Shown here: positions 3,700 through 37,413 of the stretch, one piece after another | How positions within the stretch are numbered: the stretch's first letter is position 1 | How the letters are laid out: each line of letters begins with the position of its first letter | Assembly (NCBI GenBank): GCA_002798255.1 | Contig: NWQQ01000010.1 | Span: 62,001 to 126,000 of the forward strand | Direction: 5' to 3' | DNA length: 64,000 bases | DNA from: Lysobacteraceae bacterium NML95-0200 | Lineage (GTDB): Bacteria > Pseudomonadota > Gammaproteobacteria > Xanthomonadales > Xanthomonadaceae | Program-made: the position numbers and the translations under genes | Notes under the pieces: model-generated | The model's input: only the letters and a program-made list of their open reading frames with translations | What the model was told of the DNA's origin: nothing | The model's database searches: none

Positions 3700-5238
3700 T
3701 CAATCTTCTTGGATATGCAGCTCGATGCCGAGTGCGCGCAGGTCGTGCGGCTGGCTCTCCAGGTCGCTTTTGAGTAGCGGCTTGGCGGCCAGCCAGTCGC
3801 GGGGTAGGCTGAGTGTGAGCTGGCTGGCATTGGCCTGTAGCCTGGCGACCGACAGGTCGCGTGCCTTGTGCGAGCGATTGAGCACGACTGCCAGCCGCAG
3901 CAGAGCGGTGATGCGCCGGGTGGGCAGCAGCAGGCGTTCGGGGATGGCATTGAAGGCGTTTTTCGGGATGCTGCGGCGCTGGCAGCGCACCAGCACTGCC
4001 AATACCTGCTGCTGCTGGCGGGTAAAGCCGGGGATATCGGAGTGCTCCAGCAAATAGGCGCCATGCACATGGTGCTGGCTATGCGCCACTGCCAGGCCGA
4101 TTTCATGCAGCCAGGCGGCCCAGCCCAGTTTGGCGCGGTCTTCGGCCTGCAACTCCCAGCGCGCGGCAACCTGGTCAAACAGCTGCATGGCGGTGGCTTC
4201 CACGCGCTCGGCCTGTGCCTCATCCACCGCATAGCGTGCCATCATCAGGTCGATGGCGGCATCGCGCGGGTCATCGCCGCTGCCGCGGCCAATCATGTCG
4301 TAGAGGATGCCTTCGCGCATCGCCGCGCGGCTGACGCTCATGCGCTCGATGCCCAGGGCATTGAAGGCCGCTTCCAGAATCAGGATGCCGCCGGCAATCA
4401 CCGGCTGGCGTTCGGCGGACAGGCCGGGCAGGTCGATGGCGGCGAGGCTATCGGCCTGCAATAGCCGCTCGCGGATTTTCGGCAGCGCCTGGGCGGTAAT
4501 CGCGCCCTTGGTGAGCTTCATCTCGGTGCAAATCTTGCCAATGGCCTTGATGGTGCCGGAGGAGCCAATCACGTCATGCCAGCCGATATTGCGGTAGTGC
4601 TGGGCGAACTGCTGGAACTCGGCGGAGATTTCCGTCAGCGCCTGCTGCCACTTCTTGCGGCTCAATTTGCCGCTCGGGAAAAACCGGCGGGTGGTGGCGA
4701 CGCAGCCCATTTGCAGGCTTTCGCGCTCGATGGCGTCAAGGCCGGTGCCGATGATGCACTCGGTAGAGCCGCCGCCGATATCCATCACCAAATGCCGCTG
4801 TCCAGGTTCAGTGGGCTGGGCGCTGGCCACCCCGAGGTAAACCAGACGCGCTTCTTCGCGCCCGGCCACCACTTCGATGGCATGGCCGAGCGCCGCCTCG
4901 GCGGGGGTCAGAAAGGCCTGTGCGTCTTTGAGCTTGCGAACCGTATTGGTGGCGATGGCGCGCACCCGCTCGGCCGGAATATCGCGGATGCGCTCGCCAA
5001 AGCGTGAGAGGCATTGCAGGGCGCGCTCGCGCACCTGGGCACTCAACCCGCCCTGGGCATCCAGGCCATCGGCCATGCGCACCATTTCGCGGATACGGTC
5101 AACCACCCGGATCTGCCCCTGCACATAGCGCGCCACAATCATGTGGAAGCTGTTGGAGCCAAGGTCGATGGCGGCCATCAGGTCGCCATCTTCAAGGGGC
5201 AGCGGGGCACTGAGTGCGGTGCGACGGAGCGTGTTCAT
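3700..5238 (-). CDS. ppx: Exopolyphosphatase (Ppx/GppA family)
   Basis: 512 aa. Releases terminal phosphate from long-chain polyphosphate; cytoplasmic. The N-terminal actin-like ATPase fold shows the phosphate-1 motif [16 protein letters not shown] and the phosphate-2 motif [10 protein letters not shown], with [11 protein letters not shown] following. The C-terminal third (about residue 310 on) is the HD-type helical domain of the long Ppx form. Its ATG overlaps the ppk stop by 4 bases, so kinase and phosphatase are probably translationally coupled. GppA (pppGpp phosphatase) is the main alternative; linkage to ppk favours Ppx. Confidence 0.93.
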
Positions 5239-7310
5239 CCGCAGATTTTCTCAAGCAAAGTGGCCTGGGCGGAATAGGGCGCGACATTTTCCGGCACCTC
5301 TACCCGCCGATATTCGCCATTGGCCTGCAATTCCCAGGCGTTCTGGTTGTCCGCCAGATAGTTGTCCAGGGTTTCGGCCTTGACCCGCTGCGCCAGTGTT
5401 TCATCCAGGATGGGAAAGCAGGTTTCCACCCGGCGCAGCAGATTGCGCTCCAGCCAGTCGGCACTGGCGCAGAACAGTTCCGGCTGGCCGTCATTGGCAA
5501 ACCAATACACCCGGTGATGCTCCAGAAATTGGCCGACGATGGAGCGCACGCGGATGTTTTCGGAAATGCCGGGCACGCCCGGGCGCAGCGTGCAGGCGCC
5601 ACGCACAATCAGGTCGATTTGCACGCCGGCCTGTGATGCCTCATACAGCGCACGAATCACGCGCGGCTCGTTCAGGGCATTCATCTTGGCGATGATGCGT
5701 GCCGGTTTGCCGGCGCGTGCGTTTGCCGCCTCGCGCGCGATGCGCTCAAGCATGCCGGTATGCAGAGTGAAGGGCGATTGCAAAAGGCGTTGCAGCTGCA
5801 CCACCGGCGCAAGCCCGGAGAGCTGCTGGAAAATCTGGTGGACATCGGCGCCAATGCCGGGGTCGGCAGTGATAAGGCCGATGTCGGTATAGACCCGCGC
5901 CGTGCCGCTGTGGTAGTTGCCAGTACCAAGATGCACATAGCGGCGCAGCCCTTCGGCCTCGCGGCGCACAATCAGCAGCATCTTGGCATGGGTCTTGTAG
6001 CCGACCACGCCGTACACCACTTGCACCCCGGCTTCTTGCAGGCGGTCGGCAAAGCCCAGATTGGCTTCCTCGTCAAAGCGTGCGCGCAGCTCCACCACCG
6101 CGGTGACATCCTTGCCGTTGCGGGCGGCCTGTATCAGGCTCTCGACAATCGGCGAGTCCTTGCCGGTGCGGTACAGGGTCTGTTTGATGGCCAGTACATT
6201 GGGGTCCTCGGCGGCCTCGCGAATCAGGTCTTTCACCGGATTGAACGAGTCAAACGGGTGGTGCAGCAAGATATCGCCACGGGCAATGCGGCTGAACAGC
6301 GTTTCGGAATCATCCAGCTGGCGTGGATGCACCGGCGGGAACTTCAAGTCCGGGCGGCGCACCGCATCATACACCTGTACCACGCGATTGAGGTTGACCG
6401 GGCCGTTGATGCGGTACACCGCATCGGCGCTCAGCTCGAAGTTTTCCAGCAGCATCTGCACGATGTCTTCGGGACAGTTTTCGGCAATTTCCAGGCGCAT
6501 CGCGCGCAGATAGCCGCGGCCAACCAGCTCATCGCGCAACGCCAGCGCCAGATTGTCCACATCTTCCTCATCGACTATCAGCTCGGAATTGCGGGTGACA
6601 CGGAACTGGTAGGCGCCCTTGACCTTGAGCCCGGGGAACAACTCGTCCATGAATGCCGACAGCAGCGAGGAGAGAAACACGAAATCGTGGTAACGGTCGC
6701 CATCGCCATCGCGGTCGGGCATACGGATGATGCGCGGCAATGAGCGCGGTGCGCGGACGATGGCCAGATGTGCTTCGCGGCCGAAGGCATCGCGCCCTTC
6801 CAAGCGCACCACGATATTGAGCGATTTATTGAGAATCTGCGGGAAGGGATGCGCCGGGTCCAGCCCCAATGGCGAGAGCACCGGCATGATTTCCTTGCGG
6901 AAATAATCGCGCAGCCAGCGGGTTTGCTCGGCATTCCATTCGGTACGGTCAAGCAGGCGGATGCCTTCGGCCTCCAGCGCCGGGCGCAGCTCGTCGTAGA
7001 AGCAGCGGTATTGGGCGCTGACCAACTCGCTGGCACGCTCATGGATGCGTGCAAGGATATTGCGGTGCGCCAGGCCATCGGCGGCGCGGGCATAGCCAAG
7101 GTCGGCCGCATGGCGCACGGTAGCGGCGCGGATTTCAAAGAACTCATCCAGATTGGTGCAGGAAATGCACAGATAGCGCAGTCGCTCCAGCAGCGGTATG
7201 TCCGCATTTTGTGCCTGCGCCAGGACGCGGAAGTTGAAGTCCAGTTGCGACAGCTCGCGGTTGGCATACCACTGGGCGTCATTGAGATTGGTGGTGGGGG
7301 GCGTATCCAT
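5235..7310 (-). CDS. ppk: Polyphosphate kinase 1
   Basis: About 691 aa. Reversibly transfers the gamma phosphate of ATP to polyphosphate. The N-terminal helical domain starts with YANRELSQLDFNFRVLAQ, followed by the head domain with CTNLDEFFEIR and LGLDPAHPFP. The two C-terminal phospholipase-D-like domains carry the catalytic histidine regions GYKTHAKMLLI and HLGTGNYHSGTARVYTD. Two starts are possible: ATG at 7310, used here, or TTG at 7328 overlapping the phoR stop (TTGA) and adding six residues. Neither has a strong Shine-Dalgarno. The position after phoR puts it in the same direction as the Pho genes. Confidence 0.95.
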   Translation of the reverse strand: MDTPPTTNLNDAQWYANRELSQLDFNFRVLAQAQNADIPLLERLRYLCISCTNLDEFFEIRAATVRHAADLGYARAADGLAHRNILARIHERASELVSAQYRCFYDELRPALEAEGIRLLDRTEWNAEQTRWLRDYFRKEIMPVLSPLGLDPAHPFPQILNKSLNIVVRLEGRDAFGREAHLAIVRAPRSLPRIIRMPDRDGDGDRYHDFVFLSSLLSAFMDELFPGLKVKGAYQFRVTRNSELIVDEEDVDNLALALRDELVGRGYLRAMRLEIAENCPEDIVQMLLENFELSADAVYRINGPVNLNRVVQVYDAVRRPDLKFPPVHPRQLDDSETLFSRIARGDILLHHPFDSFNPVKDLIREAAEDPNVLAIKQTLYRTGKDSPIVESLIQAARNGKDVTAVVELRARFDEEANLGFADRLQEAGVQVVYGVVGYKTHAKMLLIVRREAEGLRRYVHLGTGNYHSGTARVYTDIGLITADPGIGADVHQIFQQLSGLAPVVQLQRLLQSPFTLHTGMLERIAREAANARAGKPARIIAKMNALNEPRVIRALYEASQAGVQIDLIVRGACTLRPGVPGISENIRVRSIVGQFLEHHRVYWFANDGQPELFCASADWLERNLLRRVETCFPILDETLAQRVKAETLDNYLADNQNAWELQANGEYRRVEVPENVAPYSAQATLLEKICG

Positions 7311-7324
7311 CGGGGCAGTGCCAT

Positions 7325-8494
7325 TCAAGAGTGGGCGGGCGAGCGTAGCAGAGTGCGTGTGTTGGGAAATACACAGCGGAAAATGCTGCCCTGGCCGAGC
7401 TGGCTTTCGATTTCCAGATGCGCATCGTGCAGGCTCAGCACATGCTTGCAGATGGCAAGGCCAAGGCCGGTGCCGCCGCTTTCGCGGCTGCGGCTTTGCG
7501 AGACGCGATAAAAGCGCTCGGTCAGCCGTGGCAGATGTTGCGGGGCGATGCCGTAGCCATTGTCCTGGACGCTGAACACCGCGCCGCCCTGTGGCAAGGC
7601 GTCAAAACGGATGTCGATTCGGCCGCCGTCGGGGGTGTAGCGCACGGCATTGCTGATGAGGTTGGAGAACGCGCTATGCAGTTCTTTTTCCATGCCCAGC
7701 AGGTCAAGTCCGGCATCCTCGTGCAGCTGGATATGCTGCCGCCCCCTGGAAAGCCCTTCGGCCTCGCGCAGCAGGTTTTGCATGAGGGGCTGCATCGGCA
7801 CTGGCTGTACGGCGACCGGTGCGGCGGCATCCAGACGCGAAAGCGTCAGAAGGTCATCCACCAGTTGTTTCATGCGCTGCGATTGCTTGTGCATTTCCGG
7901 CACGATGCCCTGCCACTCGGGGGGCGCCTCGTCCTGGAGTATGTCCAGATAGCCATGCAGTACGGTCAGCGGCGTGCGCAGTTCATGCGATACGGTGGCG
8001 ACAAAATCACGGCGCATGTCCTCAAGACGCAGCAGGCGGCTGACATCCTGCACCATGAGCATGGGCTGACCCTGGCTGGAGCGCACAAATTCCAGCTTCA
8101 GGCGCAGTGAGGCATCTTGCGGCGCGGCCAGGTTTTGGCGCGCATCAGGTGCAGGGCTTGCCAGCCAGTCGGCCAGTTGCAGCGATGGCAGTCGCGTGGT
8201 GATGGCACAGCCAATATCCCCGGGATAGGCCAGCCCCAACAGGCGCTGCGCGGCCTGATTGAACCACAGCGCATGTTCGCGGCGCTCGTCCAGCAGCACG
8301 ATGGCTTCGGGCAGGGCATCGAGCGCATCGCGGGCATGGCGCAGCCGCCGCAGCAGCAGGCGGCTGCGCTGGCGGGCGTGGCGTGGCGAGGGGAGAGGCG
8401 CAGGCTTGGCTTGTCCGCGCCAATACAGCCATGCACACAGTACGGCAAGGATGAGGCAGAGCAGCGACAAGGCAGCGGTGGGCGTAAGACTCAT
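7325..8494 (-). CDS. phoR: Phosphate regulon sensor histidine kinase
   Basis: 389 aa. Senses phosphate status through PhoU/Pst and phosphorylates PhoB. One N-terminal membrane segment (about residues 8-25) is followed by a PAS-like region (about 55-150, LDALPEAIVLLD) and the HisKA helix with phospho-acceptor His170 in VSHELRTPLT. The HATPase domain shows FSNLISNAVRYTPDGG (N box), VQDNGYGI (G1) and ESGGTGLGLAI (G2). There is no periplasmic domain, as usual for PhoR. It overlaps phoB by 4 bases. Confidence 0.94.
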   Translation of the reverse strand: MSLTPTAALSLLCLILAVLCAWLYWRGQAKPAPLPSPRHARQRSRLLLRRLRHARDALDALPEAIVLLDERREHALWFNQAAQRLLGLAYPGDIGCAITTRLPSLQLADWLASPAPDARQNLAAPQDASLRLKLEFVRSSQGQPMLMVQDVSRLLRLEDMRRDFVATVSHELRTPLTVLHGYLDILQDEAPPEWQGIVPEMHKQSQRMKQLVDDLLTLSRLDAAAPVAVQPVPMQPLMQNLLREAEGLSRGRQHIQLHEDAGLDLLGMEKELHSAFSNLISNAVRYTPDGGRIDIRFDALPQGGAVFSVQDNGYGIAPQHLPRLTERFYRVSQSRSRESGGTGLGLAICKHVLSLHDAHLEIESQLGQGSIFRCVFPNTRTLLRSPAHS

Positions 8495-30436: not shown

Positions 30437-30779
30437 TTGTATGAACCATACAGCCTGAAAAACAGTGGCTAGCTTGCCGCATCATCGCCATGGCGGCAAT
30501 GCGGGGTGATCAAGCGTTAAGGAAATCATGGATTTTGGGAATCTGAAGATAGTGTGCATGTTGCCAGTATGCGCATGGGCAGCGGGCTGGACGCAGGTGT
30601 GTTTTTCACTTTGCGAACTTTCACATACAGGTCTATCCTAGGCTTGATGCGATTTTGTCCGGTTATCGCCGCAGTTTCGCGGGGGTGCCATGGGCAATAC
30701 ATCGGATGGGGCTGGCGCAAGCGGCTCCTGCTAGCGGCTTTATTTACATATACGCTCAATAATGTCTGGGGAGATACAC
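30437..30779. other. 343-bp divergent intergenic region, lptD and Roadblock cluster
   Basis: No convincing gene. A 7-bp inverted repeat (TTGCCGC/GCGGCAA, 30474-30480 and 30493-30499) lies on the lptD side. A weak sigma-70-like pair TTGCGA-17 bp-TATCCT (30611-30639) points toward the Roadblock cluster. A 78-codon open frame at 30554-30790 has no family look and no strong start signal. The 3' end contains GGGGAG (30768-30773) as ribosome-binding site for the next gene. Confidence 0.5.
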
Positions 30780-31142
30780 ATGCGTACTGACATGTTTCAA
30801 CGGTTGCTGGAAGACCTGACCGGCTCTTCTGCCGATATCGAGGCTTCTGCATTGACATCGACCGATGGGCTGATGATTGCCTCGTCGCTGCCGCATGATA
30901 TGGACGAAGACCGCGTGGGTGCGATGTCGGCAGCACTGCTGTCGCTGGGCGAGCGCGCTGCCCAGGAGCTCGCCCGCGGCTCTCTGGAGCGGGTCTTGAT
31001 CCAGGGCGACAAGGGCTACGTCATCATGAGTGCGGCAGGCAATGAAGCCGTGCTGATTGTGCTGGCGCGTCAAAATGCCAAGCTCGGCCTGCTGTTCCTG
31101 GATATCAAGCGTGCAGCCGAAGCGCTTGCCAAATTGATTTGA
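30780..31142 (+). CDS. Roadblock/LC7-domain protein (MglB-like)
   Basis: 120 aa, a single Roadblock/LC7 domain: helix, then strand ASALTSTDGLMIASSL, a long helix (MSAALLSLGERAAQEL), strands LERVLIQGDKGYVIMSA and EAVLIVLARQNAKLGLLFLD, and a last helix. Bacterial Roadblock proteins usually act as regulators of Ras-like GTPases (MglB with MglA). No GTPase gene is present nearby, which is odd. ATG at 30780 is chosen for the GGGGAG site just upstream. First gene of a five-gene plus-strand cluster, overlapping nothing and followed 17 bases later by the PAS gene. Confidence 0.88.
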   Translation: MRTDMFQRLLEDLTGSSADIEASALTSTDGLMIASSLPHDMDEDRVGAMSAALLSLGERAAQELARGSLERVLIQGDKGYVIMSAAGNEAVLIVLARQNAKLGLLFLDIKRAAEALAKLI

Positions 31143-31159
31143 TTGGGAGTGTTTTCATC

Positions 31160-31657
31160 ATGGCACTTTCCGACATGACCCAGCCGGCAGTACCGGCACA
31201 AGCGCATACGTGGATCTATGCCGATGGCAGCTCCCGTACCATTTATGTCACTGATAACGAGCTGCCTTTCCCGGAAGGACGCTTGATTGTTTCAAGAACC
31301 GACCTCAATGGCATCCTGACCCATGCCAATGATGCTTTTGTGGAAATTTCCGGCTACGCGCGCAGCGAGCTGATCGGTCAGCCGCATAGCATCTTGCGCC
31401 ATCCGGACATGCCGCGCGCGGCCTTCAAGGATTTGTGGGACACCTTGAATGCAGGCAAAAAATGGCATGGCTATGTCAAAAATCTTTGCAAGGATGGCAG
31501 TTATTACTGGGTGTATGCCACGGCCGTGCCCAATATCCGCGATGGCAAGGTGGTTGGCTTTGCTTCGGTACGCCGTGCACCCTCGCGGCGCAAGATTGAA
31601 GAAATGACTGCGCTCTACCAGCAGATGCGCATGGTAGAACAAGGAGGTGCGGCATGA
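31160..31657 (+). CDS. Stand-alone Aer-type PAS domain protein
   Basis: 165 aa soluble protein, one PAS domain (about residues 40-150). The pattern RHPDMPRAAF (Arg80, His81, Asp83), GKKWHGYVKN and KDGSYYWVYATAVP matches the FAD-binding PAS of the aerotaxis receptor Aer, in which the RHPD residues matter for flavin binding. Unlike Aer it lacks membrane segment, HAMP and methyl-accepting signalling domains. It ends in a short helix (KIEEMTALYQQMRMVEQ) that could dimerise or bind a partner. Its stop overlaps the next gene (ATGA). Flavin or redox sensing is inferred. Confidence 0.85.
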   Translation: MALSDMTQPAVPAQAHTWIYADGSSRTIYVTDNELPFPEGRLIVSRTDLNGILTHANDAFVEISGYARSELIGQPHSILRHPDMPRAAFKDLWDTLNAGKKWHGYVKNLCKDGSYYWVYATAVPNIRDGKVVGFASVRRAPSRRKIEEMTALYQQMRMVEQGGAA

Positions 31658-32406
31658 TGCTCAATATGCTGATTGCGCCGGATTTTGCGCCTGAGCGTTT
31701 TGCCGGATGGCATATGCTCAATACGCTGTTGCAAAAAAAGACCGGCATGCAGATTCATTTGCTGACCCCGGCTTCGGCGGCGGAGCAAGCCGAATGGATT
31801 GCTTCGGGCAAGGTGGGCGCGATTTATGCCAATCCCTTTGATGCGGCGACCATGTTGCGCGAGCAAGGCTATCGGGCTATCGCCCGCCCGGTAGGCAAGC
31901 CCGATGAAATGGTGATTGCCACTTCTGCCAGCTCGCCCTGCAACAAAATCCAGGATCTCAAGCCCGGTTGCCGTATCGCGCTTACCGACAACAAGGATGT
32001 CAAGCTGATTGGCCTGCGCCTGCTGGAAGCGGCGGATTTGACCGAAGCCGATATCAACTGGGTGCCGGTGGACACCTATCAGGCCTCGGCGCGCCTGGCC
32101 ATCAAGGGGGAAGTGGATGCTTCTTTCTTCTTGGCAGAGGCTTATCACTCGTTATCGCGCCTGAGCCAATCCCAGCTCAAGCCGCTGATTGAAAGCAGGC
32201 TGACCGATATCACCCATGTGATTTTGCTTGGCAAGCAAGTTGACGAGGAGGCCGGCGAGAAAATTTTGCAGGCCTTGCTGTCGCTCTCAGGCTCAACGGA
32301 TGGGCAGCCGGTGCTGGATGATCTGGGTATCAAGGGCGGATTTGAGGCCATGGACAGGGAAGATGCCGAATTCATGATTGACCTCATGGATACGCTTCTG
32401 GACTGA
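31654..32406 (+). CDS. PhnD-like substrate-binding-domain protein without signal peptide
   Basis: 250 aa. It resembles the PhnD/phosphonate-type periplasmic binding fold: LLTPASAAEQAEWIASGKVGAIYANPFDAATMLRE, here quoted in parts as KVGAIYANPFDA, then CNKIQDLKPGCRIALTD and GEVDASFFLAEAYHSL. There is no N-terminal signal or lipobox, and the gene is translationally coupled to a cytoplasmic PAS protein, so it probably acts in the cytoplasm as a ligand sensor, not in uptake. The last 50 residues are an acidic extension (MDREDAEFMIDLMDTLLD). No ABC permease or ATPase is adjacent. Confidence 0.78.
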   Translation: MMLNMLIAPDFAPERFAGWHMLNTLLQKKTGMQIHLLTPASAAEQAEWIASGKVGAIYANPFDAATMLREQGYRAIARPVGKPDEMVIATSASSPCNKIQDLKPGCRIALTDNKDVKLIGLRLLEAADLTEADINWVPVDTYQASARLAIKGEVDASFFLAEAYHSLSRLSQSQLKPLIESRLTDITHVILLGKQVDEEAGEKILQALLSLSGSTDGQPVLDDLGIKGGFEAMDREDAEFMIDLMDTLLD

Positions 32407-32446
32407 GCCTGCAAGTCCCTGGCCAATCTGACCTGAATCCAGAGCC

Positions 32447-33055
32447 ATGACGCTTATACCGCCTGCCGCAGGAAACCTTGAGGGGCAGGCTGTGCGTATC
32501 GCCTTCCAGCGCGCTGGTCGCAGGGTATTGGCCGCGCCTGAGGTTCACGCGCATCATCAGGCGCGTATTGCTGCCGCCATGCCAATGCCGGGCAGTGAGG
32601 CGCTGCAAGCGGCAGTGGTGGACATGCTGCATGCCTGCCCGCCGGAGCCTGAGCTGTTTGCGGAGCTGATGGCATCGCCTGATATGACCCAGCGATTGCC
32701 CGCCCATGTGCATGCAGCACTTTGCGTCGTGGCGCAGTCAGGAACATGCCTGCCACGCGTTACCCGCTGGGCAACGCGCTGGTGCATCCTGGCGACGCCA
32801 TCGCTGGATGTGCCGCGCCGTGCACTGTTGTGCGGGACAGATGATTCCCGCACATTGGCCGCAGCGGCATTGCACGCCATACTTGCGGGCGATAGGCAGG
32901 CAGAAAACGAGTTTCTGGAACACTGTCAGGCCACATTTGATACCTTGGCCTTCATGTTGGTGCGTCGTGACCTGCTCAAGCGCAAAAAGCCACTGGATAC
33001 ACGCTGGGATGTGGTTGCAGCTGCGCTTGAAAACATCAGAAGCCCAAATACTTGA
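32447..33055 (+). CDS. Unknown, mainly helical protein in the Roadblock cluster
   Basis: 202 aa; I do not recognise the family. It is alanine-rich and predicted mostly alpha-helical, with four cysteines (MLHACPPEPE, LCVVAQSGTCLP, WCILATP, LLCGTDD among them) and a basic stretch (RRDLLKRKKPLDTRW) near the C-terminus. No signal peptide or membrane segment. ATG at 32447, 40 bases after the PhnD-like gene; no strong Shine-Dalgarno. Same strand and spacing as its neighbours, so probably part of the same operon. Confidence 0.65.
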   Translation: MTLIPPAAGNLEGQAVRIAFQRAGRRVLAAPEVHAHHQARIAAAMPMPGSEALQAAVVDMLHACPPEPELFAELMASPDMTQRLPAHVHAALCVVAQSGTCLPRVTRWATRWCILATPSLDVPRRALLCGTDDSRTLAAAALHAILAGDRQAENEFLEHCQATFDTLAFMLVRRDLLKRKKPLDTRWDVVAAALENIRSPNT

Positions 33056-33096
33056 AGCCCTGTGGACTTTGGAAACGATTGCAAGCGAGAAGCGCC

Positions 33097-33726
33097 ATGC
33101 CTGACAAGACGGTCGAGCCTTATTTGATGCTGACCCCGATAGGTACCTTGCGCGCCTATGCCCAGGCCGAGCCTGATGAAGTCAGTACGGCACTGCAAAC
33201 GCTGATGGCTGCATCAGAAGCGCCATCGCGCAGTGCCTGGCTTGCGCGCAGCGGCATGGATTTGACGTTTTTGACCATGGCGCTGGCAGAGGGCTGGGTG
33301 CATGAAATCACACAGCCACTGCGCGCGCCTGATGCCAACCTGGACAATTATCTGCCGCATGCCATTGCCGGCCTTTCTGGCAGCCGCACGGCAGCACTGG
33401 CATCCAGTGACGGCTTTTGTCTTGCCCGGGTAGGGTATTCGCAAACCGAAGCCGAAGCGCTTTGTGCGGCCGCGGCAGAATTTGCCGATTTTATACAGCG
33501 CCAGCGTCAGCGCGGTTGGAGCGGCAGTGCGCGTGCGGTGTCATTTCATAACGACATCGACATGCTGTTGCCGACCACAACCCTGCTCATGTTTTGGGTG
33601 GATGGTGCCGGCTACTGGCTGATTATTGGTGATGAACCCCTCATCAACAATATTGCCTTTGTGCAACTGGTTTGGGGGTTGCGGGCGGCCAATGCCCGAT
33701 TTTCAGCGGTGTCGATGGACGCTTGA
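33097..33726 (+). CDS. Unknown protein, possible helix-turn-helix plus Roadblock-like fold
   Basis: 209 aa. Residues about 1-85 look helical with a winged-helix-like run (SAWLARSGMDLTFLTMALA then EGWVHEI). The C-terminal half has the strand-helix-strand order of a Roadblock domain: AALASSDGFCLARVG, a long helix, RAVSFHNDIDML, LLMFWVDGAGYWLIIG and a terminal helix. The SSDGFCL element parallels STDGLMI in the first gene. This similarity is my reading and needs a profile search. Start taken at ATG 33097; a TTG at 33052 overlapping the previous stop is possible. Confidence 0.62.
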   Translation: MPDKTVEPYLMLTPIGTLRAYAQAEPDEVSTALQTLMAASEAPSRSAWLARSGMDLTFLTMALAEGWVHEITQPLRAPDANLDNYLPHAIAGLSGSRTAALASSDGFCLARVGYSQTEAEALCAAAAEFADFIQRQRQRGWSGSARAVSFHNDIDMLLPTTTLLMFWVDGAGYWLIIGDEPLINNIAFVQLVWGLRAANARFSAVSMDA

Positions 33727-36164: not shown

Positions 36165-36234
36165 GAAGGAGGCAGCGCAGTATAAGCAGGCTGTCGGTAT
36201 TTGCCAAGTGTTTTTTGCAAGCGCAAGTTCGGGT

Positions 36235-36510
36235 TTAACCGAGCTTTTCGGCCAGTGCCTTGCGAACGCCAGCTTCCACCATGTCCTGCATGGCCGAGAA
36301 GGGAAAGCCAAGGTTGGCGCTGAGCTGCACTTGCTGTGGCATCAGGCGGATGCTGCCGGTTACACCGGGGCGTTCAAAGCGAAGCTCATCGCCCTGCCAT
36401 TGGCAGGCAAGGCCGTATTCCTGGGTCAGCTTGGCCGCGACCTGGTCAACGGCGCTGCGTGCCTTGTCCAGGTCAAGCGTGGTTGGGTGGACGATATGGA
36501 TATTGCTCAT
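36235..36510 (-). CDS. Polyhydroxyalkanoic acid system family protein
   Basis: 91 aa. Short protein of the family annotated as PHA-granule system protein. Core: VHPTTLDLDKARSAVDQVA, WQGDELRFERPGVTGSIRL and FPFSAMQDMVEAGVRKAL. Function in polyhydroxyalkanoate biology is only suggested by family name; phbB at 53316-54056 supports a PHB pathway in this organism. A much longer in-frame reading to 38121 antisense to the FHA gene and serC is rejected; ATG at 36510. Confidence 0.85.
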   Translation of the reverse strand: MSNIHIVHPTTLDLDKARSAVDQVAAKLTQEYGLACQWQGDELRFERPGVTGSIRLMPQQVQLSANLGFPFSAMQDMVEAGVRKALAEKLG

Positions 36511-36597
36511 GCTTTGCGGAGGCCAAGATGTACGGAAAGCGGCATTGTAGTGCCCGCCGGCAATCAATTTGGCACGCGGTATGCCAAAATCTCGCGC

Positions 36598-37413
36598 GTG
36601 AATATCCCCCGACTGCCCCGACTCATTCTGCGTTTTCCGGCTCACCAGCATAGCGACTTGCCGTTGCAGCCTGGTATGAGCCGGCTTTGCCGTGACCCGG
36701 ACTTTGACCGTGGCCTGATGCTGGCGCGCGAGGGCTGCCGCTCGCTGATTGATTTTTGTCTGGATGCACGTGGTTTGTGGTTGCATGTGGCCGAAGGCGT
36801 GGCCGGTGTGCATGTCAATGGCCGGCCGGTGCGGACTCTGGCGTTGCTGCGCGCGGGCGACTGCATTCACTGCGAAGGCGTGGAGATGTGCGTGGGCGAA
36901 GTTGCCGGGCGTGCAGCCAAAGCCTTGCCCGAGCCTGATGAATTTGATGCGCCGGAGAAGCTGCCATTTCCCGTGCTGCGCGGTTTGTGTGGCGACGACC
37001 ATGGCCGCACATTGCTGATTGACCGGTCGCTGAAAATTGGCGGCAAAGATGCGGATATCGTGCTGGAAGGTGAGCAAGACATGCTGGCGCAGATTGATTG
37101 CCGGCAAGGGCAACTCTGGTTGCAGGCGGTCAAGACCGGACAGGCTGTGCAGCTCAATGGCGAAAGCGTTGAGCTTGCGCAGCTTCAGCATGGCGACCAG
37201 TTGGCATTTGCGCCGGGCAGCCGTTATCTCTTGGAAGCGCCAGGCCAATCCGCCGCCGTGTTGGCAGCGGCACAAAAGCCTGCGGCGGCTGTGCCACAGC
37301 CAGAAGCCGGGCAAAACATGTCGCCGCGCCGCTGGCAGGTGCCGTGGCTGCTGCTGGCCGCCATTTTGAGTGCCGCGTTTTTGGCGGCTTTGCTCTGGTT
37401 CGGGGTCAAATAA
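36598..37413 (+). CDS. FHA-domain membrane-anchored protein
   Basis: 271 aa. Two FHA-like beta sandwiches (about 10-105 and 125-220; DARGLWLHVAEGVAGVHVNG and LKIGGKDADIVLEGEQ, QLWLQAVKTGQAVQLNG) are followed by a proline/alanine linker and one C-terminal membrane segment (WLLLAAILSAAFLAALLWF). FHA domains usually bind phospho-threonine peptides, but the Arg/Ser pair of a phospho-site is not clearly present. Start is GTG at 36598; upstream in-frame sequence overlaps the opposite-strand PHA-system gene. Stop is followed at once by the serC start. Confidence 0.78.
   Translation: MNIPRLPRLILRFPAHQHSDLPLQPGMSRLCRDPDFDRGLMLAREGCRSLIDFCLDARGLWLHVAEGVAGVHVNGRPVRTLALLRAGDCIHCEGVEMCVGEVAGRAAKALPEPDEFDAPEKLPFPVLRGLCGDDHGRTLLIDRSLKIGGKDADIVLEGEQDMLAQIDCRQGQLWLQAVKTGQAVQLNGESVELAQLQHGDQLAFAPGSRYLLEAPGQSAAVLAAAQKPAAAVPQPEAGQNMSPRRWQVPWLLLAAILSAAFLAALLWFGVK

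Follow-up and report, generated by a model that had tools for sequence, protein, structure and literature searches.

A five-gene Roadblock and sensor cluster without a local GTPase in Lysobacteraceae bacterium NML95-0200, and its relation to Group 3 MglA operons

The stretch of DNA analyzed here, called the window, comprises 64,000 nt of Lysobacteraceae bacterium NML95-0200 (GCA_002798255.1, NWQQ01000010.1, positions 62,001-126,000). Within it, positions 30780-33726 hold five open reading frames (ORFs), A to E, all on the + strand in the ORF list. Two of the products are of Roadblock type, and the others are a soluble PAS protein, a ligand-binding fold and a helical protein. The genes, and the junction at which related loci carry two more genes (F and G), are as follows.

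30780..31142, + strand: gene A, Roadblock/LC7 (MglB-like) protein, 120 amino acids (aa), Pfam PF03259
31160..31657, + strand: gene B, stand-alone Aer-type PAS protein, 165 aa, PAS_3 and Aer match, without a methyl-accepting chemotaxis protein (MCP) part
31654..32406, + strand: gene C, leaderless PhnD-like substrate-binding fold, 250 aa, PF12974
32447..33055, + strand: gene D, all-helical and perhaps TPR-like protein, 202 aa, by predicted structure
33056..33096, + strand: D-E junction, site of F (~430 aa) and the small GTPase G in relatives, both absent here
33097..33726, + strand: gene E, N-terminal helical part and C-terminal Roadblock fold, 209 aa, by predicted structure

The genes are tightly spaced, as an earlier reading made from the letters alone (the sequence-only reading) had described: 17 bp separate A and B, B and C overlap by 4 bp, and 40 bp separate C and D. 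The gap between D and E is 41 bp if E starts at the ATG at 33097, and becomes a 4-bp overlap with the alternative TTG at 33052. No GTPase gene lies inside the cluster. A consensus scan found one promoter-like site in the cluster, versus 2.3 expected from shuffles, and there were four terminator-like sites, versus 3.9 expected from shuffles. The region 5' of A (30437-30779) has a GC content of 51%, versus 61% for the window, and zero promoter-like sites in the consensus scan.

The identities proposed by the sequence-only reading held for all five products: a Roadblock/LC7 protein, a free-standing Aer-type PAS protein, a binding-protein fold without export signal, a helical protein without family, and a protein with a Roadblock-like C-terminal half. 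A, the best-conserved gene of the unit, matched Robl_LC7 (PF03259) at 65.2 bits versus a cut-off of 23 and carries an Asp-Gly pair (D29-G30). B matched PAS_3 at 67.5 bits, PAS families being its sole families above cut-off. Its closest solved structure was the Aer aerotaxis receptor (31cj and 8dik, phmmer E values of 5e-39 and 4e-38, respectively), with an alignment of 132 residues that includes a common RHPDMP stretch. B probably holds a flavin (FAD) cofactor and would sense redox state or respiration. Aer has an MCP part, whereas B is a lone PAS protein beside a Roadblock gene. C matched Phosphonate-bd (PF12974) at 132 bits; it has this fold in common with PhnD-type periplasmic ABC binding proteins, but their export signal is missing in C. 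In 50 of 51 C rows, some of them from overlapping loci, no more than 6 residues separate the nearest preceding Met from the first strand, and a hydrophobic 10-mer within the 40 residues before that strand was seen in one of the 51, in an over-extended ORF. Because C and 50 of the 51 aligned rows begin right at the first strand, C is most likely cytoplasmic. As a single-sequence query against solved structures, C gave zero matches at E 1e-3.

The two remaining products were characterized mainly by their models. D had zero families above cut-off in the domain-family search, and its AlphaFold2 model (predicted local distance difference test score, pLDDT, of 88.7) predicts 11 helices and an all-helical protein. 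Fold comparison of D gave zero significant matches (best Z 8.1, to a helical protein), and a D profile gave zero matches among solved structures at E 1. D relatives in two loci (L048 and L052) showed TPR matches, weak and under cut-off. E scored 17.8 bits with Robl_LC7, under the cut-off of 23, and in its AlphaFold2 model (pLDDT 86.8) residues 79-200 are predicted to form a Roadblock fold. Foldseek matched E to MglB (6hjm, E 9e-4, probability 1.00), and comparison with Roadblock/MglB chains gave VIA Z scores of 8-10, mainly over residues 79-200. The N-terminal part of E is modelled as rich in helix with a strand at its end, and the structural matches cover residues 79-200. The Asp-Gly pair is not conserved among E proteins. 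The family search found zero kinase domain families above cut-off among A-E.

A scan of genome contigs with A returned 41 loci, the nearest named record being Lysobacteraceae bacterium NML07-0707. In 28 of these loci, F and G lie between D and E. F (~430 aa) has zero Pfam families above cut-off, and G is a small GTPase of ~180 aa, which matched ATP_bind_1 at 39.6 bits (cut-off 27) and TIGR00231 at 36.8 bits, the latter under cut-off. A class-wide sample of 369 genomes gave an A match at E 1e-12 in 51, counting the source genome, and all families were mapped by profiles over the added class-sample neighbourhoods. Some of the 86 A-bearing loci are near-duplicates or stop at a contig end, and a few of their PAS proteins are not B. 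The order A-B-C-D-F-G-E is found in Comamonadaceae and Moraxellaceae, and the order D-F-G-E-(H)-A-(B-C), where H is a protoglobin (84 bits), in other gamma lineages. Mapping of co-occurrence across genomes thus found that the set recurs, and because set and order recur in many genomes, a chance gathering of A-E was ruled out. A-E is a conserved, co-inherited unit. Variants of the unit were also seen. L141 (G042:C40:1-20000) has two A-type Roadblocks, one with C only and the other with B and C, and its D-F-G-E genes are shuffled in order on the opposite strand. Two loci encode a cluster GTPase that carries a fused protein kinase domain at its N-terminus (L115:9347-10846 (-), Pkinase 122.6 bits; L132:1596-3086 (+), Pkinase 130.7 bits), and in both a FIST sensor gene lies 3' of A.

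The full unit of the relatives was compared with published MglA systems. Group 3 MglA systems occur in beta- and gamma-Proteobacteria and comprise MglA, one or two MglB proteins and a conserved unknown protein with a receiver-like N-terminus and a winged-helix-like C-terminus (PMC4316618). The same account gives a G3 motif GTPGQ in groups 2-5, a G5 DAR with the G4 lysine often missing in groups 2 and 3, and an MglB Asp-Gly pair in groups 2-5, its Asp near MglA (PMC4316618). In the relatives, G carries both GTPGQ and DAR in all 20 rows, 19 of which lack the G4 lysine. F fits the unknown protein in position and in absence of a Pfam family. Because G has GTPGQ and DAR, mostly without the G4 lysine, and A has the Asp-Gly pair, the relatives are by these sequence features Group 3 MglA systems, and the window cluster is, on the same grounds, a derivative without the GTPase. 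The window resembles Group 3 in A (PF03259 and D29-G30), in the Roadblock fold of E and in its beta/gamma-proteobacterial host; it differs in having neither MglA nor the unknown protein F and in carrying D, B and C, which the available part of PMC4316618 does not mention. Since the defining GTPase is missing, we leave the window locus itself outside Group 3.

The sequence-only reading had found no Ras-like GTPase. This is true of the cluster, but because 28 of the 41 related loci hold a GTPase between D and E, the missing GTPase in the window looks like a secondary loss. Among 65 loci with A, D and E, G is present in 55 and missing in ten (the window, L023, L035, L044, L045, L113, L116, L117, L139 and L140). 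F is also missing in six of the ten (the window, L023, L044, L045, L139 and L140), and L023 nearly duplicates the window locus. When every stop-to-stop frame of the ten G-less loci was searched with the profile, filters off, no G remnant was found (best 8.8 bits, in L113), which rules out a misplaced or broken GTPase in the locus. In the window genome F gave no match with a single query, and the locus is likewise without F.

Trees were calculated from A, B, C and E of 39 loci; six near-identical or truncated rows were dropped, and L116 and L117, without B and C, stand outside. On these trees the presence and absence of G amount to four changes, each forced by supported branches. Change counts alone would read as gain or loss alike; G-bearing loci, however, are in the majority and lie all around the G-less ones. 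A single Lysobacteraceae clade was rejected by the approximately unbiased test (p 1.8e-7 in the first tree and 1.6e-8 in a rerun), three rows of that clade having an odd letter make-up outside the model assumptions. In the first trees, a neighbouring PAS protein stood in for B in some gamma loci. The rerun, with B picked near A and a quick method supported by the Shimodaira-Hasegawa-like approximate likelihood ratio test only, reproduced the four changes and the clade rejection. Because the window operon nests among Comamonadaceae, it was probably acquired horizontally, and F and G were probably lost apart from the X. massiliensis group. Within the genus, the operon is present in 3 of 17 genomes examined, some of which are 83-91% complete. 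In the stretch fetched beside FadD in 10 congeners, the window's other flanking genes were not found, except CopD in one, so an empty insertion site is not demonstrable. Farther along the window, an ORF next to serC at 36208-37413 (+) resembles, by eye, an FHA-type protein.

The retained genes A-E look to be under purifying selection. The ratios of nonsynonymous to synonymous substitution (dN/dS) versus L023 were 0, 0.12, 0.06, 0.24 and 0.12 for A, B, C, D and E, respectively, and versus L024 they were 0.02, 0.04, 0.05 and 0.40 for A to D, E lying off the L024 contig. L023 shares the loss of G visibly, and for the genome of L024 the loss is taken from a whole-genome search. In the 55 G-bearing loci, 61 positions of A reach 90% conservation or more; window A keeps 60 of them and G-less A proteins keep 54-60, with a G-bearing mean of 98%, and G-less E proteins keep 10-12 of the 12 positions conserved in G-bearing loci. 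Over the 61 positions compared, A gave no sign of decay in the G-less loci. At residue 58 of A (30951-30953), an Asp58Glu change is common to the window clade and the G-less X. massiliensis/Rhodoferax clade. It was ruled out as a mark of GTPase loss: Glu occurs in 11 G-bearing loci and Asp in 16 without a listed G, in a count that includes short fragments and duplicates.

The genes next to A vary among lineages. Across the 86 A loci, B and C occur together in 44, with H in another 4, H without them in 11, a CZB protein in 4, B alone in 3 and C alone in 1, leaving 19 with none of these. In those 19, a FIST protein follows A in 2 and an MCP-type protein occurs in 1; for the other 16, the genes that follow A were listed only. 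C-type matches in the 369-genome sample at E 1e-20 occurred in 17 genomes besides the source genome. In 15 of them, with at least 35% identity, all adjoin A, and in the other 2 (best 27-28%) they are not by A, positions being judged by eye. Because protoglobin, CZB or FIST proteins occupy the slot elsewhere and C-type proteins of at least 35% identity were found in the class sample only beside A, B and C look like one among several interchangeable sensor cassettes of the Roadblock protein A.

GTPases encoded away from the cluster were searched for with a G profile in 37 genomes. All 11 genomes with a local G matched, including 5 that, unlike the other 6, had not supplied profile sequences. Twelve genomes with a G-less cluster were checked, the D-E junction being visible in 10; the exceptions are G001, where the contig stops after D, and G429 (L039), which shows A and C only. 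In 7 of the 12 (G017, G022, G204, G159, G376, G428 and G429), no G-related GTPase matched anywhere; G022 is a single contig rated 100% complete, G376 is 79% complete, and completeness was not given for G428 and G429. The other five hold G relatives, one each in the source genome, its two close relatives and P. aestuarii, and two in X. massiliensis. Among other Ras-type families, PF08477 gave zero matches above cut-off in 15 genomes, the contig-12 GTPase described below being missed too, which makes this a weak control. PF00025 matched in the controls Thermus and Deinobacterium, and in G-less genomes it matched only in frames of at least 339 aa, which are probably IF-2/EngA-type proteins; it misses the GTPases of contig 12, L025 and L062.

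An orphan MglA-like GTPase was looked for in the source genome, and one lies on contig 12 (G000:C12:143715-144227), but with its own Roadblock gene beside it (22.0 bits versus the Pfam cut-off of 23; 152 bits with the A profile). It is 42% identical over 113 residues (5-117) to the L025 cluster GTPase, and six congeners that lack the window cluster have it too (G004, G009, G010, G011, G013 and G016). Its surroundings, L065 (G000:C12:138000-152000), hold at ~4513-8331 a second GTPase/Roadblock module, which also has genes for two proteins of 136 and 232 aa, the larger one matching MarR under cut-off, and for a 2Fe-2S/FAD/NAD/truncated-globin (ferredoxin-reductase-globin) fusion. The GTPase-Roadblock pair recurs in congeners (L143-L146, L150 and L151).

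We propose, with a probability of about 0.55, that the cluster descends from a Group 3 MglA/MglB operon that was stripped of its GTPase, and that A-E would relay sensor state without a local GTPase. This proposal starts from what was observed: the gene set, homology, the missing F and G, and selection. The cofactor, ligand, complex, signal direction and output are proposals, built as follows. In the relatives, G would be an MglA-type switch under the control of the Roadblock proteins A and E; D would serve as a helical scaffold, and F may be an output. B would report redox or respiratory state through a flavin and C a small cytoplasmic ligand; both may bind A, which would work with E and the helical D. 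In the relatives, such a sensor-Roadblock complex would set G and perhaps F. In the window, A and E may instead relay by direct partner contact with each other, D or a further target, perhaps the type IV pilus/PilJ pathway; alternatively, the Roadblock complex may act on a distant GTPase. The most likely reading is a redox/ligand sensor that works via Roadblock proteins, whether or not a GTPase takes part in trans. The sensing module on a Roadblock switch that had been suggested from the letters thus survives as a co-inherited, leaderless PAS/ligand-binder set, but its GTPase-free state looks secondary.

Several points weigh against a GTPase-free relay. The predicted GTPase-facing residue of A is highly conserved, so that contact with a GTPase could still be made, and Asp58Glu in A fails to follow GTPase loss cleanly. 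The distant contig-12 GTPase is kept here and could serve in trans, as could the GTPases of X. massiliensis and P. aestuarii. Window D and the D of gamma loci are 13-17% identical and are united by profile and position. The link to type IV pili, in turn, draws on a single chemoreceptor and on analogy.

The best-surviving alternative takes up the distant GTPase: the window Roadblocks would be regulators of the contig-12 GTPase, of the GTPase-activating protein (GAP) or guanine nucleotide exchange factor (GEF) type, and the system would be GTPase-driven in trans. The contig-12 protein resembles the cluster GTPase of a relative and is present in all three genomes with a window-type cluster, the G-less P. 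aestuarii and X. massiliensis keep one and two GTPase paralogues, respectively, and A retains the Asp-Gly pair, whose Asp is placed near MglA (PMC4316618). We nevertheless consider this alternative unlikely, as the contig-12 GTPase has an adjoining Roadblock of its own and persists in six congeners that have no window cluster, and no relative of it was found in 7 of the 12 genomes with a G-less cluster.

A chemoreceptor was also looked for in the source genome, and one match was found (676 aa, L155:5042-11061, G000:C7), flanked by a CheW-like gene and by a gene that has three Hpt matches and extends as far as the end of the contig. We take this CheW-like/chemoreceptor/triple-Hpt order to be that of the type IV pilus chemosensory operon PilI-PilJ-ChpA. 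Of 11 genomes searched, 8 have a single chemoreceptor and the others 10, 12 and 33. MglA of M. xanthus stimulates pili together with a TPR protein (PMC7519303), and mutation of an orphan MglB of Snodgrassella yields motile flares on soft agar (PMC11112851). Because a lone chemoreceptor lies in a pilus-like operon and these two systems offer an analogy, a type IV pilus output is plausible, though we hold it doubtful.

An output that is transcriptional or metabolic rather than motile is improbable. Transcriptional output has been proposed for Group 3 from the winged-helix-like region of the unknown protein (PMC4316618), and the N-terminal part of E, modelled as helix-rich with a strand at its end, might be DNA-binding-like; fold matches of E, however, cover residues 79-200, with the N-terminal part barely compared, and F is lost here. 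A decaying remnant of a horizontally acquired operon left after switch loss, which the absence of F and G, the nesting among Comamonadaceae and the limited distribution within the genus would allow, is very improbable in view of five intact frames, dN/dS well below 1 (0 for A versus L023) and the same A-B-C-D-E set without F and G in P. aestuarii and in Lysobacteraceae L044, L139 and L140, by losses apart from the window's.

Our literature search, in which subscription journals were thinly covered, found no account of a Roadblock/PAS/PhnD-like set. The sequence-only reading had known of no described system of this composition; the core is published as Group 3 (PMC4316618), but the B/C pair and D are not in the available part of that account. 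Loss of mglA from conservons is also in print there (PMC4316618). As far as the literature searched shows, apparently new are D as a standing member, the putative PAS/PhnD-like, protoglobin, CZB and FIST cassettes, and a repeated GTPase loss from Group 3 operons, the rest kept, in genomes where no GTPase relative was found.

Other known systems resemble the cluster in part. Actinobacterial conservons (Cvn) link a sensor to a Roadblock protein and a small GTPase in one operon, and an orphan MglB after mglA loss has been noted in them (PMC4316618), but CvnA is a histidine kinase, whereas the cluster has a soluble PAS protein and a PhnD-like protein instead. As of 2014, no orphan MglB had been characterised, by the available part of that account (PMC4316618). 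The Snodgrassella mgl locus has a 121-aa Roadblock away from its MglA, but MglA is still in the genome (PMC11112851); its comparison with A is by description. M. xanthus MglC is a Roadblock paralogue without GAP activity that works via MglB (PMC11112851); its cell has MglA, whereas here the operon, and in some genomes the whole genome as searched, is without the GTPase. HGbRL couples a globin sensor domain to a Roadblock domain in a single fused protein (PMC4476040), versus separate genes here. M. xanthus MglA-MglB-SgmX combines a Roadblock module with a TPR protein in type IV pilus control, but with a Group 1 MglA (PMC7519303), and D is TPR-like by weak evidence.

Work on bacterial Roadblocks has dealt chiefly with their partnership with MglA-type GTPases, and MglC, studied since 2014, works beside MglA. 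Because the same loss appears to have occurred at least four times, the GTPase may be optional in Group 3 operons, which would then be Roadblock-sensor systems in essence. We tentatively suggest, at rather less than even odds, a Roadblock switch that would need no Ras-like GTPase, in which swappable soluble sensors, here an FAD-PAS protein and a cytoplasmic PhnD-like binder, act on an MglB-like dimer and the output is direct protein contact. The repeated natural loss of the GTPase, including in a one-contig genome where no related GTPase was found, offers clean test strains for Roadblock signalling alone. The swappable slot, with its PAS and PhnD-like, protoglobin, CZB or FIST proteins, hints at redox state, gases, metal or oxidant stress and small ligands as inputs, and suggests that such inputs concern a widespread class of beta/gamma-proteobacterial GTPase operons.

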